From positions 3,621,001 to 3,685,000 of the forward strand of contig NZ_CP041387.1 in NCBI RefSeq assembly GCF_007005445.1: a stretch of 64,000 bases of DNA. Direction: 5' to 3'. The position numbers were made by a program, and so were the translations under genes. This document shows, in pieces, positions 7,747 to 46,743 of the stretch; position 1 is the first letter of the stretch, and each line of letters begins with the position of its first letter. Under the pieces are notes generated by a model that saw nothing but the letters and a program-made list of their open reading frames with translations, made no database searches and was not told where the DNA came from. The DNA comes from Rhodopseudomonas palustris (GTDB lineage: Bacteria > Pseudomonadota > Alphaproteobacteria > Rhizobiales > Xanthobacteraceae).

Positions 7747-8309
7747 CGCTCCCTCCTGATGCTGATACCAGCGGGCGCGCGCGCATGCGGCGGCGTTGCC
7801 CGCAAAAGCCTTGCGTGAGTGGTGGGTTCAGGGGGCCTCCGGTCGGCCATCGGGCCGAGGGAGGTGGAGCGCCGAAAGACGCGCCTTTGGTAGTACCCGC
7901 GGCCTCATGCCTCGGATCGCCGAAGCGCGAGCGCCGCGGAAACGTCTTTCGACGCTCCACCGTGGCGACTTTTGGCTGAAGGACCGTTCTTCCGGGACAC
8001 GGCGAGCTTGCGGGCTTTCCCCGGCCTCTACCGTACCCGTCCAGCCTCTGTCGCGGCGGCCGCTCGTAGTAGCGGCGGACGGCGACCCTCAGCCTCCCGG
8101 AGGTACAGGGCGACGTCCACCCCACACCCGCAGGCGCCACACCCCGCCCCGCGACGACCAGCGTCCCGGCAACGCGCCCCTCGATGGGGCGGGATGGATA
8201 GGAATATAGACTTATCGTCCAGACACGTCAATCACTCAATGCTCGGATAGGAAAATTCACACGCACGTGGTCTAATGTGGCACCGACGATCTAGCCGACA
8301 GAGAGCGAT
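7747..8309. other. Gene-free stretch before the helicase cassette
   Basis: About 560 bp in which open frames exist on both strands only because of high G+C; none has a ribosome-binding site or recognisable motif. It holds the inverted repeat listed at 7863-7961. Around 8190-8220 base composition shifts abruptly from G+C-rich to A+T-richer sequence that continues through the helicase cassette, marking the probable left border of an acquired segment. Confidence 0.5.
7863..7961. repeat. 19-bp inverted repeat with 61-bp spacer
   Basis: Left arm GGTGGAGCGCCGAAAGACG (7863-7881) and right arm CGTCTTTCGACGCTCCACC (7943-7961) are complementary with one mismatch. The intervening sequence is G+C-rich and non-coding. 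It could be the ends of a small mobile element or a large RNA hairpin. Confidence 0.65.
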
Positions 8310-10442
8310 ATGGTTGAAGTTATTTGGGGCAGTTCTTCCAAGCCCGCGTCATCGAGAAGGCTTGCTGAAATTCTGGAAGCTGCCGATGATTTAGAGGGAA
8401 CGCTCTATATTGGCTACCCGATCCTGGGTACACCTTCAGGTGCCTTTCCGATAGATGCGACTCTTCTCAGCCCTGAGCACGGGATCATCGTATTCGATGT
8501 CGTGGAGGGACGAGATCCGACCGACTTCCAGCAGCGTCAGGACGAGATCTACACAAAAGTAAAATCACGCTTGATGCAATTTCCAAATCTCGTCCAGCGA
8601 CGAGAACTCGGCGTCGAACTGACCGTTGCCACATTTGCTCCCGCAACGCTCGTTAAGCGCTTCGATGTCGGACCAGACTATCATCTTCTCGACAGCGCCT
8701 CCCTAAGAGATTTCATACCGACCATCTCTTGGGAAAACAAACAACTATACCCCGCACTCGCTTCCGCAATTCAATCACTTTCCACCATTCGACGAGGCAA
8801 AAAGAAACGCGAATCCGCCCGGCCTGATTCTCGCGGCGCAAAGCTTCGAAGACTGGAAGAAACGATTGCGAATCTGGACGTCAACCAAGGTGCAGCGGTA
8901 ATTGAAACCGTGCCTGGCGTCCAGCGCATTCGAGGCTTGGCGGGATCTGGCAAGACCATTGTCCTCGCACTCAAGGTTGCTTATCTCCACGCACAAAATC
9001 CCGAATGGAATATTGCAGTCACGTTCAACACTCGTTCACTGAAGGGACAATTCGAACGTTTGATTACCAACTTCGTGTACGAGCAAACCAGCGAAGAGCC
9101 CGATTGGGACAAGATCGAGATCGTAAATGCGTGGGGAGCTCCGGGAAGCTCTGATAGAACAGGAATCTACTATAAATTCTGCAGAGCCAACGGCACAACC
9201 TACTTTGACTTTAAGTCTGCTCAGGAACGCTTTCCAGGGAAAGAATTCCAGGGAGCGTGCAGCTTAGCGCTAAAAGAAGCGATTAATCCGCAACCTTTCT
9301 ACGACGCGATACTGGTCGACGAAGCGCAGGACTTCCCTCCGGAATTCCTGCGACTGTGTTATCGCTTCCTGAAAGAGCCGAAGCGCCTTGTTTACGCGTA
9401 CGACGAACTTCAGAACCTCACTAATGCCTCCATGCTTCCACCAGAAGACATCTTCGGAAGGGACTCCCAAAATCGTCCGCTAGTATCATTGACGAACTCT
9501 TCCTCTGGCGAGCCTCGCCAAGACATCATCCTTGAAAAATGTTACCGGAACTCGCGCCCTATACTGGCAACTGCTCATGCTCTAGGATTTGGCATCTATC
9601 GCACCGCAGGGCTAGTTCAGTTCTTTGATCAGCACGACCTCTGGCTCGACGTTGGCTACGAGATAAAGACAGGAAGCCTGTCCGACGATCAGCGCGTATC
9701 GCTCCATCGAACCGACCGGACAAGTCCGAGATTTTTAGAATCTCACTCTCCCATCGACGACATCATCTCCTTCAAGTGTTTCGAAACGACTGAAGCGCAG
9801 GACGAGTGGTTAGCGGGCGAGATAGAGAAAAATCTCAAAGAGGACGACTTACTTCCAGAAGACATCGTTGTAATAAACCCCGACCCCCTGAAGACAAGAA
9901 AGGCCGTTGCGCGGGCGCGATCCCTTCTGTTCAAGAAGGAGATAAACTCAACATTGGCAGGCGTATCCTCTTCGCCCGATGTATTTTTTGAGAATGATGC
10001 CATAACTTTCACGGGCATCTTCCGAGCCAAGGGCAACGAGGCCGCGATGGTGTATATCATCAACGCTAATGATTGCTACGACTCTTACTTTCCTGTCCTT
10101 AGAGCTCGAATCCGCAGTCAACTTTTTACTGCAATAACGAGATCCAAGGCATGGGTAAGGGTTCTTGGCGTAGGCGCTGACATGAAAACCCTTGCGCGCG
10201 AGTTCGAAACGATAAAGCAGAACGACTTCTGCCTCAATTTTCAATACCCCAACGAACAGAAGAGAAAAGAATTGCATATAATCAACAGAGACATGACGCA
10301 CGACGAGAAGAAGTCGCTTGTGCGCAATATCTCAGATTTGGGCAGAATACTTGACGAGATTGATCTGGGGACTGTGACGCTTGAAGACTTACCTCAAGAC
10401 ATCCAGAGCAAGCTCCAAAAGATTATCGGGAAGATGGTATGA
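8310..10442 (+). CDS. NERD-like/UvrD-like superfamily 1 helicase (defence-type)
   Basis: A 710-aa protein with superfamily 1 helicase motifs: Walker A RIRGLAGSGKTIVLAL near residue 211, motif II ILVDEAQDFPPEF near 335, motif IV-like CYRNSRPIL, motif V-like FRAKGNEAAMVY, and motif VI QLFTAITRSKAW near 602. The N-terminus (IDATLLSPEHGIIVFDVV, residues 48-65) resembles a NERD nuclease core, but the E-x-K pair reads D63-V-V65, so nuclease activity is doubtful. Codon usage is clearly more A+T-rich than in the neighbours, suggesting transfer. The start has only a weak GAGAG site. The stop overlaps the next gene by 4 nt (ATGA), so the two are translated as a pair. An anti-phage role is inference; a repair helicase is possible. 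Confidence 0.8.
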   Translation: MVEVIWGSSSKPASSRRLAEILEAADDLEGTLYIGYPILGTPSGAFPIDATLLSPEHGIIVFDVVEGRDPTDFQQRQDEIYTKVKSRLMQFPNLVQRRELGVELTVATFAPATLVKRFDVGPDYHLLDSASLRDFIPTISWENKQLYPALASAIQSLSTIRRGKKKRESARPDSRGAKLRRLEETIANLDVNQGAAVIETVPGVQRIRGLAGSGKTIVLALKVAYLHAQNPEWNIAVTFNTRSLKGQFERLITNFVYEQTSEEPDWDKIEIVNAWGAPGSSDRTGIYYKFCRANGTTYFDFKSAQERFPGKEFQGACSLALKEAINPQPFYDAILVDEAQDFPPEFLRLCYRFLKEPKRLVYAYDELQNLTNASMLPPEDIFGRDSQNRPLVSLTNSSSGEPRQDIILEKCYRNSRPILATAHALGFGIYRTAGLVQFFDQHDLWLDVGYEIKTGSLSDDQRVSLHRTDRTSPRFLESHSPIDDIISFKCFETTEAQDEWLAGEIEKNLKEDDLLPEDIVVINPDPLKTRKAVARARSLLFKKEINSTLAGVSSSPDVFFENDAITFTGIFRAKGNEAAMVYIINANDCYDSYFPVLRARIRSQLFTAITRSKAWVRVLGVGADMKTLAREFETIKQNDFCLNFQYPNEQKRKELHIINRDMTHDEKKSLVRNISDLGRILDEIDLGTVTLEDLPQDIQSKLQKIIGKMV

Positions 10443-11095
10443 CGCCAAGAGCAACTGCATCAGAGATTAGCGCGATAATCACCAAGCTAATTGAGACGAG
10501 CCTGTCAGATCAACAGAACTGGCCATCCTTCATAAATTCGCGAGGCCTGACAGAGATTGGCATTCAAAATAATCCATCTCTAAGCATTGGCATGAAAAAC
10601 ATTCCTTACGAGGAAATTTATCTCACACTTCTTGCGGACAACGCATTCCACATCAAGATGCTCGACGGAGCCTTACTGCAAATGTGCTATCGATTTGCGG
10701 GCGATAGCATTCATAGCCACAGGTTATGCATGTTTCCGGCGCCTGATCTGGATAGCTTTGACAATCAACCCGACCTTTATCTGCAAGACGAACTTTATGG
10801 GGACATAGTCGGAAGAAATATCGTTCACTTTCCAATTCGCTTCGATTTTTGCATTGATGAAGCGCTGCACGTAGACGTTAAGCATCCAAAATCGCATCTA
10901 ACCTTGGGGCAGTACCCCAATTGCCGCATCCCGCTTGCCTGTCCATTAACACCTGCGAGGTTCATTTCGTTTATTCTTCGAAATTTCTATCACACAGCTT
11001 TTTATTCAACTGGGCTAGAGACGATTGACTGCAGCCAATCGTTCCAAGAAACAATTACCTCCAATGAGAAGCTCATAGCGCATATTTTGGCGTAA
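10439..11095 (+). CDS. DUF2290-type protein, partner of the helicase
   Basis: A 218-aa protein whose C-terminal half carries a signature I associate with the DUF2290 family: HFPIRFDF near residue 128, then HVDVKHPKSHLTLGQY, NCRIPLACPLTP and FILRNFYHTAFY. The biochemical function of this family is not known to me; the conserved Asp, His and Lys in DVKHPKSHLT would suit a catalytic or nucleotide-binding role (inference). The N-terminus is helical. Start ATG 10439 overlaps the helicase stop by 4 nt, so its synthesis depends on the helicase gene. Base composition is A+T-rich like the helicase. No signal peptide or membrane segment is seen. Confidence 0.72.
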   Translation: MTPRATASEISAIITKLIETSLSDQQNWPSFINSRGLTEIGIQNNPSLSIGMKNIPYEEIYLTLLADNAFHIKMLDGALLQMCYRFAGDSIHSHRLCMFPAPDLDSFDNQPDLYLQDELYGDIVGRNIVHFPIRFDFCIDEALHVDVKHPKSHLTLGQYPNCRIPLACPLTPARFISFILRNFYHTAFYSTGLETIDCSQSFQETITSNEKLIAHILA

Positions 11096-11193
11096 ACGCT
11101 GATCTGCTTCCGATCCTTGAAATCGCCTTCTCACGCATTTCTACTCTCACCTTTCGCCCATAGGGGGATTGGTGAAGCGTAATCCGCCCACCT

Positions 11194-11787
11194 GCCGGAC
11201 GGCCTCCGCTTGTTCGTCATAGAAGTCATCCTTGCAAAAGATCCCGCGGTCGCTTCGCTCACGCGGGCTACGCTTGCTGCGGACCGACGACAGCGAGTAC
11301 TTGCGCAAGTCGGTCGGCAACGCCCTGCGGGACATCAGCAAGAAGCACCCCGATCTGATCCGCAGCGAAGTCGCGACCTGGGATCTGGATCAGCACGGCG
11401 TTCGGCAAGTTCACAAGCTGGCGACGCGCCTGCTGACGACATCCTCAGCCGCCTGAAGCGCGTGAGGCGCGGAGACGACTAGCAAGCGTAGCCTGGATGA
11501 GCGAAGCGACATCCAGGTTTGCCGCTCCCGCATGTCGCTGCGCTCATGCGGGCTACCGACTTGAAGCGCGCCTTGCGCCGACGATTGGATCAACCGTAGG
11601 GCGGATGTGCGTAGCGTCATCCGCCGTCTTCATTGACACTGCACATCGTCGGGTTACGCCTCGGCTAACTCGCCTTACTTCTGCGCCAGCTTGCGCGCCG
11701 TCTGCAATCATAGCCCGCGCGACCGAAGCGACCGCAGGGTCTGGTGCGAGGACGCCTTCTATGACGAACAAGCGGAGGCCGTCCGGC
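11194..11787. repeat. 77-bp imperfect inverted repeat pair (arms 11194-11270 and 11711-11787)
   Basis: The left arm begins GCCGGACGGCCTCCGCTTGT and ends CACGCGGGCTA; the right arm is its reverse complement, beginning TAGCCCGCGCGACCG and ending AGCGGAGGCCGTCCGGC. Both arms are 77 bp with no gaps and roughly ten mismatches. They enclose 440 bp that include the alkylation-repair remnant. No transposase is encoded between them. Confidence 0.75.
11280..11456 (+). pseudogene. Remnant of a DNA alkylation repair (AlkC/AlkD-like HEAT) gene, 3' end only
   Basis: The frame encodes about 58 residues resembling the C-terminal HEAT-like repeat of COG4335-type DNA alkylation repair proteins: DSEYLRKSVGNALRDISKKH followed by PDLIRSEVATWDL and a basic helix before the TGA at 11454-11456. 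Homology starts abruptly at about 11280, ten bases after the left arm of the inverted repeat, so the 5' part of the gene was lost at that junction. An in-frame ATG at 11232 lies inside the repeat arm and is unlikely to be a true start. Confidence 0.55.
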
Positions 11788-12066
11788 ATCGCTCGGGACG
11801 CCGAAAGGACGACCAGCACACCCGCGCCGGACACGGCTCGGACCGGACGCGATCTGGTCGATGCGATGCAGGCCTCGCCTTGTCGAGATGTCGAACTTAT
11901 GCCGCGTCGGATGAGACTTCCGGTACGGGGCGTTGATCCGTTCGCGACATTCTCAGAATGACGTTTGGAGTCCGACGAAGCGGCCTGTCGCGATCTGTGG
12001 GCCTCGCTTCGTCCCGCGTTTCGCGACCCTCATGCGGACTCCACACTGGACTCACCACCTGCGTCG

Positions 12067-12105
12067 CCCTCACCCCAGCCCTCTCCCGCAAGCGGGAGAG
12101 GGAGC
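12067..12105. repeat. Family E hairpin repeat
   Basis: CCCTCACCCCAG followed by CCTCTCCCGCAAGCGGGAGAGG, a near-perfect hairpin. Related copies occur between serA and serC at 45374-45509. Confidence 0.65.
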
Positions 12106-12168
12106 GCGCTGCGATCTGCGGCATGGCCCGTGCTTCAAGCTCAGAGGGGCGATCCTTGCCACAACGTC

Positions 12169-38402: not shown

Positions 38403-38427
38403 GCGTCACAGCCGACATAACCACTGC

Positions 38428-39402
38428 GTCGTTCCGGGGCACGCGCATCAGCGCGTGAACCCGGAACCTCGCGGTGACGATCCACGCGTTGCTTCAACAT
38501 CTCCAGATTCCGGGTCTGCGTGCTGCGCACGCATCCCGGAATGACGTCGCCCGGGAGTGAGCGCCCGCTCCTAGCCCCACGGCAAACCAACCACCGCCGT
38601 CGTTCCGGGGCACGCGCATCAGCGCGTGAACCCGGAACCTCGCGGTGACGATCCACGCGTTGCTTCAACACCTCCAGATTCCGGGTCTGCGTGCTGCGCA
38701 CGCATCCCCGAATGACGTCGCCCGGGAGTGAGCGCCGCTCCTAGCCCCACGGCAAACCAACCACCGCCGTCGTTCCGGGGCACGCGCATCAGCGCGTGAA
38801 CCCGGAACCTCGCGGTGATGATCCGAGGCGTTACTTCAACACCTCCAGATTCCGGGTCTGCGTGCTGCGCACGCATCCCGGAATGACGTCGCCCGGGAGT
38901 GAGCGCCCGCTCCTAGCCCCACGGCAAACCAACCACCGCCGTCGTTCCGGGGCACGCGCATCAGCGCGTGAACCCGGAACCTCGCGGTGACGATCCACGC
39001 GTTGCTTCAACACCTCCAGATTCCGGGTCTGCGTGCTGCGCACGCATCCCCGAATGACGTCGCCCGGGAGTGAGCGCCGCTCCTAGCCCCACGGCAAACC
39101 AACCACCGCCGTCGTTCCGGGGCACGCGCATCAGCGCGTGAACCCGGAACCTCGCGGTGATGATCCGAGGCGTTACTTCAACATCTCCAGATTCCGGGTC
39201 TGCGTGCTGCGCACGCATCCCCGAATGACGTCGCCCGGGAGTGAGCGCCGCTCCTAGCCCCACGGCAAACCAACCACCGCCGTCGTTCCGGGGCACGCGC
39301 ATCAGCGCGTGAACCCGGAACCTCGCGGTGATGATCCGAGGCGTTACTTCAACATCTCCAGATTCCGGGTTCGCGCCTGTCGGCGCGCCCCGGAATGACG
39401 TT
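38428..39402. repeat. Tandem array of about 5.7 units, period 170-172 bp, built from family A elements
   Basis: Unit starts at 38428, 38599, 38769, 38941, 39111 and 39282. Each unit contains GTCGTTCCGGGGCACGCGCA, a variable centre (GATCCACGCGTTGCTTCAAC or GATCCGAGGCGTTACTTCAA), the hairpin GATTCCGGGTCTGCGTGCTG to CGAATGACG, and a spacer ending in CACGGCAAACCAACCACCGC. The centre variants run A A B A B B across the six units, and the hairpin is CATCCCGG or CATCCCCG. The last unit is cut short and closes with a different right half (GGCGCGCCCCGGAATGACG). Confidence 0.92.
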
Positions 39403-45517: not shown

Positions 45518-46693
45518 TCAAGCGGCTTGCGCGAGGCCGGCCTTGGTGGTCTCGAACGCGTAGTCGAGCCACTGCGTCAGGGTGGCGACATCGGCGGTTT
45601 CCACCGTGGCGCCGCACCAGATCCGCAAGCCCGCCGGGGCATCGCGATAGGCGCCGAGATCGAAGCCGGCGCCTTCCTTCTCAACCACCGCGACCAGCTT
45701 CTTGGCGAAGTCGGCCTGGGCTTCCGGAGACAGCGCGGTGATCGCGGGATCCACCACCTTGAGGCAGACCGAGGTGTTGGAGCGGATCGCCGGATCGGCC
45801 GCCAGGAAGTCGGCCCACTTGGCCTTCGCCTGCCAGTCGGTCAGCACCTTGGTGTTGGCGTCGGCACGGGCGATCAGACCCTTGAGGCCGCCCACCGACT
45901 TCGCCCACTCGAGCGCGTCGATGTAGTCCTCGACGCACAGCATCGACGGGGTGTTGATGGTCTCGCCCTGGAAGATGCCCTCGATCAGCTTGCCGCCCTT
46001 GGTGAGGCGGAAGATCTTCGGCATCGGCCAGGTCGGGGTGTAGCTCTCGAGCCGGGCCACGGCGCGCGGGCTGAGGATCAGCATGCCGTGCGCGGCTTCG
46101 CCGCCGAGCGCCTTCTGCCAGGAGAAGGTGACGACATCGAGCTTGGCCCAATCCAAGGCTTGCGCGAACGCAGCCGAGGTGGCGTCGCAGATGGTCAGAC
46201 CTTCACGATCGGCCTTGATCCAGTCGGCGTTCGGAACGCGGACGCCCGAGGTGGTGCCGTTCCAGGTGAAGACGACGTCGGTGTTGCAATCGACCTTGGT
46301 GAGGTCGGGAATTTCGCCGTAACCAGCCTTGAGCTTGGTGACGTTGGGGAGCTTCAGCTCCTTGGTGACGTCGCCGACCCAGCCGTCGCCGAACGATTCC
46401 CAGGCCAGCGTGGTGACCGGGCGCGGCCCGAGCAGCGACCACAGCGCCATTTCGACGGCGCCGGTGTCGGACGCCGGAACGATGCCGATCTTGTAGTCGG
46501 CCGGCACTTCCAAGACTTCGCGGGTCAGGTCGATCGCGAGCTTGAGCTTGGCCTTGCCGACCTTCGCGCGATGCGAGCGGCCGAGCGGGGCGTCCTTGAG
46601 ATTTTCGGGGGACCAGCCGGGGCGCTTGGCGCAGGGGCCGGAAGAGAAATTAGGCGTCGTGGGCCGCAATGCGGGCTTCGTAGCAGTCATCAT
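45518..46693 (-). CDS. serC: Phosphoserine aminotransferase
   Basis: A 391-aa PLP-dependent transaminase that converts 3-phosphohydroxypyruvate to phosphoserine. The internal aldimine lysine is in [17 protein letters not shown] near residue 192; the phosphate-binding start [14 protein letters not shown] and [15 protein letters not shown] segment are typical of the long alphaproteobacterial SerC type. Two adjacent ATG codons (46693, 46690) are possible starts. The ribosome-binding site sits in a hairpin of the serC leader, suggesting translational control. Followed by serA in the same direction. Confidence 0.95.
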
Positions 46694-46731
46694 CTATCCT
46701 TCCAGATAGCTGCCTCTCGGTGGGGAGAGGT
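46694..46731 (-). ncRNA. serC leader RNA motif (two hairpins before the start codon)
   Basis: On the minus strand the 5' hairpin is CCTCTC-CCCACC-GAGAGG (46713-46730), followed by CTATC-TGGAAG-GATAG (46694-46709) directly before the start codon. The likely Shine-Dalgarno AAGGA forms part of the second hairpin, so folding would hide it. This matches the position and general architecture of the serC leader motif described for Alphaproteobacteria; the ligand, if any, is unknown. Confidence 0.6.
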
Positions 46732-46743
46732 TTCCCGTCGCTG

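Follow-up and report, generated by a model that had tools for sequence, protein, structure and literature searches.

A Horizontally Acquired Cassette That Very Probably Belongs to the Helicase+DUF2290 Anti-Phage System, and a Structured RNA Element at Its Border, in Rhodopseudomonas palustris

The Helicase+DUF2290 system described by Rousset et al. (2022) consists of a DUF2290 protein and an ATP-dependent helicase and is reported to inhibit phage T7 specifically (PMC9122126). The published system sits in a P4-satellite hotspot and also in prophage hotspots of Vibrionales and Bacillales (PMC9122126), and it is listed in later papers (PMC10952713, PMC12278908, PMC11291487). The gene pair PA1371-PA1372 of Pseudomonas aeruginosa PAO1 has been assigned to the same system (PMC11637435), and a stop mutation in PA1372 undoes the changes in fitness and expression brought about by plasmid pNUK73 (PMC4410645). 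Here we describe two adjacent genes, for a superfamily 1 (SF1) helicase and a DUF2290 protein, in a 64,000-nucleotide stretch of Rhodopseudomonas palustris DNA (the window), which lies within the one 5.04-Mb contig of its source genome. This cassette is almost certainly a horizontally acquired copy of Helicase+DUF2290.

The PADLOC profile PDLC03002 (“Helicase”) matched the first protein over residues 1–707 of 710 at 1085.8 bits, and the second protein was matched by PADLOC PDLC02999 (DUF2290) at 274 bits and by Pfam PF10053 (DUF2290) at 156 bits (E = 1.2e-45). In Pfam the first protein had weak UvrD-type and AAA matches only. The two genes are adjacent on the same strand with the helicase first, which is the Helicase+DUF2290 arrangement. 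Because PADLOC models for exactly that system match both proteins, the locus is a further member of an already known system; as a defence system, the cassette adds a member, not a kind. The original prediction, made from the DNA letters and their open reading frames (ORFs), had proposed a compact anti-phage module and a profile search against defence collections as a check. The system-specific profiles for both proteins, the co-occurrence of the genes, their neighbours and the published anti-T7 homologue support that proposal. Both predicted ORFs are present on the plus strand with a 4-nt overlap (ATGA), and the second protein, identified as DUF2290 by Pfam, contains the signature HVDVKHPKSHLTLGQY that had been singled out. 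The original prediction knew of no characterised system with exactly this partner; the system had already been described by Rousset et al. (PMC9122126).

The likeness to the published system (Rst_HelicaseDUF2290) covers both genes, their order and coupling, both system profiles and carriage on a variable island. The published one comes from P4-like satellites and is active against T7 (PMC9122126), whereas the present copy is chromosomal and its activity is predicted from homology. PA1371-PA1372 is the same two-gene system, lies in a low-G+C island and is rare in its species (PMC4410645); it differs in being known via plasmid cost rather than phage defence, and the cassette is likened to it by description. 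Hachiman (HamA-HamB) also combines a helicase with a partner of formerly unknown function, and serves below as a works-like model. However, HamB is a Ski2-like superfamily 2 helicase and HamA is DUF1837 (PMC12278908), whereas the cassette has SF1 and DUF2290; membership is ruled out by the DUF2290 partner and by best helicase matches to UvrD-type SF1 (Pfam). Gabija (GajA-GajB) shares a UvrD-like helicase with the cassette, but the cassette helicase reached only 24 bits against the best GajB profile. Membership in Gabija is likewise ruled out, as the partner is DUF2290 and neither protein has an OLD/TOPRIM match in Pfam or PADLOC.

Comparison of DUF2290 loci across bacteria and archaea revealed that the pairing with the helicase is near obligate. 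From a genome profile scan the best 80 of 129 DUF2290 loci were used, together with five loci on viral contigs, and 83 of these 85 had at least 500 bp upstream and were testable. The helicase was directly upstream of DUF2290 in 82 of the 83, bearing out the co-occurrence that the original prediction had proposed to tabulate. The exception (L148) had no helicase match, and its DUF2290 match begins at residue 39, as in an N-terminally truncated remnant. Among the 82 pairs, 33 overlap by 1–26 nt (14 of them by 4 nt) and 46 are 0–14 nt apart; the outlying spacings are 77 nt, 685 nt and −648, of which +685 and −648 probably stem from misplaced start codons or damaged copies. Pairwise identities of helicase and DUF2290 were correlated over 79 loci (r = 0.84, Spearman 0.59), with none of 999 label permutations giving a value as high. 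Such strict pairing and gene coupling would also be expected of a toxin-antitoxin-like pair, in which a DUF2290 toxin is restrained by the helicase and freed when a phage occupies or removes it. That the lone helicase-less DUF2290 is a truncated remnant fits toxicity without demonstrating it, and two of five inspected plasmid copies adjoin other toxin-antitoxin or plasmid-stability genes. Against this, DUF2290 has no similarity to a known toxin family in Pfam or PADLOC, and a comparison with an alignment of six TumE-type toxins, prompted by a seemingly shared R-[FY]-D...H motif, gave nothing (hhalign probability 0.3%) and was dropped. We therefore consider a toxin-antitoxin pair unlikely.

The system is patchily distributed over many phyla. 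Record titles cover Proteobacteria, Cyanobacteria, Planctomycetes, Spirochaetes, Bacteroidetes, Chlorobi, Bacillota and others, and relatives were found on 13 of 72,556 plasmid records. The five plasmid copies inspected have DUF2290 identities of 25–42%. In every one of them, the gene directly before DUF2290 is annotated as “ATP-binding domain-containing protein”, also in the homologues at 25, 27 and 34% identity. One distant pair, on a Thioflavicoccus plasmid (L181, 1–9663), lies inside a BREX operon, between the methyltransferase gene that follows brxC and the PglZ gene. A phage-borne origin was rejected: there were no matches in 50,697 phage records, and 5 of 60 candidate viral-contig stretches encode a relative.

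The cassette is horizontally acquired, as seen from its absence from relatives and its foreign composition. Its helicase was found in one of 61 genomes, its own, and in none of 60 relatives, 15 of them of the same genus. The G+C content is 0.502 in the helicase gene and 0.449 in the DUF2290 gene, compared to 0.664 in the rest of the window, and changes sharply at position 8208, with 0.70 in the kilobase to its left; the A+T-rich pair, the left composition border and the repeat-rich flanks of the original prediction were all confirmed. These data also bear on whether the genes form a housekeeping DNA-repair operon instead of a defence system. The UvrD-like core of the helicase would suit such a role, but the helicase is missing from every relative, the composition is foreign, the distribution is patchy across many phyla and includes plasmids and five viral contigs, and a homologous pair has a published anti-T7 effect (PMC9122126). 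A repair operon is therefore highly improbable.

The neighbours of related loci were also compared to known defence genes, as the original prediction had suggested. The neighbour set comprised 121 ORFs of 150–900 aa, nearest on each side of the genome loci with both genes (L082-L161; the five viral loci excluded), and the control set 121 ORFs out of 184 that lie on 14 spaced 20-kb stretches of two genomes of the source genus, so that the taxa of the two sets differ. Type I specificity subunits (HsdS) made up 8 of 121 neighbours and 1 of 121 control ORFs, a supporting difference limited by the one-genus control. At E ≤ 1e-10, 315 PADLOC families were matched by neighbours and 8 by controls; these figures count family members, not ORFs with matches. 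A Pfam tally covered the neighbour set alone.

Table 1. Features of the cassette and its borders (window coordinates)
Feature	Position	Strand	Details
Multi-copy structured RNA element (putative RNA gene)	7850..8202	-	Fold, covariation
Sigma70-type promoter TTGACG-17-TATATT	8203..8231	-	Reads leftwards, away from the cassette; forms left border
SF1 (UvrD-like) helicase gene of the Helicase+DUF2290 system	8310..10442	+	710 aa; degenerate NERD-like domain at residues ~1-145, helicase core at ~186-640
ATGA overlap, stop/start codons of both genes	10439..10442	+	Sequence
DUF2290 gene, proposed effector	10439..11095	+	218 aa; Pfam PF10053, PADLOC PDLC02999
Right-hand flank	11193..11788		85-nt inverted repeats and interspersed repeats; DNA common with relatives begins to reappear

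The original prediction had described a nuclease-helicase-like architecture with a NERD-like N-terminus that has D49, and D63-V-V65 in the place of E-x-K. Both motifs are at the positions given, and the proposed register was reproduced by hhalign; the likeness itself is weak (E = 0.025, probability 2%, 4-sequence NERD alignment), and the helicase protein had no NERD match in Pfam at E ≤ 1. The nuclease part of the claim did not hold. All 204 helicase alignment rows bearing a residue at position 65 have V, I, A or S there, so that the NERD catalytic lysine is missing, and position 63, the supposed stand-in for the catalytic Glu, varies, being D in 91 rows and otherwise mainly H, N or S. An active NERD nuclease was rejected since the catalytic E-x-K of a PD-(D/E)XK site is not present. 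The alternative E66-G-[KR]68 was also tried and rejected: E66 occurs in 201 of 204 rows, and residue 68 is K/R in 144 and T/A/S/I in 38 more (counting the six commonest letters only). These residues speak against the N-terminal domain being a nuclease.

A structural model of the helicase had human SLFN11 and SLFN14 as its top PDB matches in Foldseek, the alignment covering the N-terminal domain as well as the helicase. UvrD aligns equally well with the helicase core of the model, and no Schlafen link was seen by sequence profile (no Pfam Schlafen helicase match at E ≤ 1). The modelled resemblance to Schlafen proteins is a lead only. The Schlafen AlbA_2 domain is present in 2 of the 121 neighbour ORFs of loci L082-L161, an observation of note given the likeness of the helicase model to the Schlafen C-terminus.

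DUF2290 has no recognised fold. In a 270-row alignment its residues D76, Y84, H94, R134, H149, H153, C162 and R163 were 100% conserved after rounding, and this invariance, which includes Asp, Arg, His and Cys positions, makes it the likelier effector. We hypothesize a division into sensor helicase and effector, as in Hachiman: the ATP-driven helicase would monitor phage or plasmid replication intermediates and, on abnormal DNA, activate or license the DUF2290 protein, which may carry a catalytic or metal-binding site and halt replication or the cell. The degenerate NERD-like domain would then be a binding or docking module. We give this mechanism a little under an even chance. Alternatively, the helicase itself could be the effector, loading on phage or plasmid forks to block or misdirect them, with DUF2290 as a substrate adaptor or regulator. 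The helicase motifs are highly constrained in the alignment, and the mutated PAO1 genes named include PA1372, not PA1371 (PMC4410645), both of which would favour an effector helicase; the many invariant charged, His and Cys residues of DUF2290, however, resemble an active site more than an adaptor, and we regard this alternative as doubtful. An acquired Helicase+DUF2290 copy, with a proposed sensor helicase and DUF2290 effector, is probably the best explanation overall. With the invariant residues of DUF2290 mapped across the family, the question of which protein is the effector can be put to the test.

In at least 11 of the 15 same-genus relatives, the left flank of the cassette is present as far as window positions 8199–8211 (8208 exactly in five), where the match stops. 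Across this border the G+C of these 11 is 0.69–0.73 in the left kilobase and 0.47–0.55 in the right kilobase. The remaining four are G005, G014, G009 and G007; within the stretches compared, matching stops close to 7175 in G005 and G014, and G007 has a match across window positions 8142–8214 on another contig. Fourteen proteins from the slot (loci L043-L053) were read, and ten of these were scanned against Pfam and PADLOC. They include a HAD protein (PADLOC PDC-S34, 408 bits) accompanied by a RelA/SpoT protein; a TIR protein, matched by PADLOC TIR-TM at 212 bits; an AIPR protein with matches in Pfam (E = 7e-30) and to AbiU (88 bits), of which a second genome has a near-identical counterpart by eye; an HD-CE/HATPase protein with a weak PADLOC match (17 bits); one DUF3800 protein; and four others lacking a Pfam match. 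At E ≤ 0.001, PADLOC matched 5 of the 10 scanned proteins, the HD-CE one weakly, and 5 of the 11 slot genomes gave uninformative matches or were outside the scan. No integrase was noticed in the slots by eye, no profile search for integrases having been made. Because slot contents differ between relatives, the cassette is one of several interchangeable cargoes, several of which are of defence type.

At the fixed border of this slot lies a well-supported multi-copy structured element with a conserved promoter. The ~350-nt element has nine copies in the source genome, including the border copy and some partial ones, and was found in 29 of 119 family genomes and 14 of 47 genera (example copies: L057, L064, L070, L233, L234, L246-L248). 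The fold of 7859–8202 was better than that of 100 of 100 shuffles (z = −5.6). The searches covered 63 element stretches, 56 of them long enough to test and 28 left after removal of near-identical ones. The consensus structure of these 28 has 86 pairs, with 94.3% of cells paired compared to 43–52% when slid by 1–3 columns, and 214 doubly changed paired cells compared to at most 96 in 200 shuffles (the structure being derived from the same 28-copy alignment). As the single promoter match is no better than chance (1 found, 2.0 expected in the region), the weight of the border promoter rests on its conservation. All 56 testable stretches (28 non-redundant) have TTGAC at one and the same offset, together with 9 or more of the 12 promoter consensus bases, the −10 being weak in some and the placement being the best of several, made without a shuffled control. 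The exact pattern of the border promoter had one match in its own genome, at another copy, and the window’s own copy differs in the −35. The element had no credible match in Rfam 15, none being above chance, and a limited literature search found nothing relevant on the element or the slot, which does not establish their absence from print.

An association of the element with defence cargo is suggestive, foreign genes being located on the promoter side in a fair share of the copies. At 20 copies from five other genera, the 40 promoter-side ORFs had matches (E ≤ 1e-5) in 73 PADLOC families, with every listed family matched through one protein only, compared to none for 39 ORFs on the other side; clearly defence- or toxin-type or low-G+C cargo was seen by eye at only about 6 of the 20. 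Ten promoter-side proteins were picked by eye, of which eight had a Pfam match (AIPR, AAA_15, DUF4238 twice, HEPN_LA2681, PemK/MazF, an HsdM-type methylase, and AAA_16 below the cut-off) and two had none. At 14 further copies in the genus, some being the same site in two genomes, the promoter side was within 3.6 kb of a 400-bp stretch of low G+C (the lowest tenth of the control) in seven and not in seven; at L060 and L061 the promoter end was unmatched and the border extrapolated. We tentatively suggest, as a possibility of less than even weight, that an unlisted multi-copy structured RNA gene created or maintains a defence slot throughout the genus, and that the cassette is one of the cargoes in this slot. 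The promoter would be the fixed border, and foreign, often defence-type genes would collect upstream of it at many copies in several genera, either because recombination is focused at this spot or because the cargo is served by the RNA. The promoter side of the element is a possible route to finding defence genes in this bacterial family, and the RNA, if it truly functions as a hotspot or partner, would represent a novel type of anchor for defence islands.

Several other features of the window were noted. A short interspersed repeat at 12048–12113 recurs at >90% identity in no fewer than 14 of 16 same-genus genomes. The sole Rfam match above the gathering score was a serC leader at 46689–46740 on the minus strand. 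A tandem array at 38419–39370 consists of 5.6 copies of a 171-nt unit that are 97% alike.
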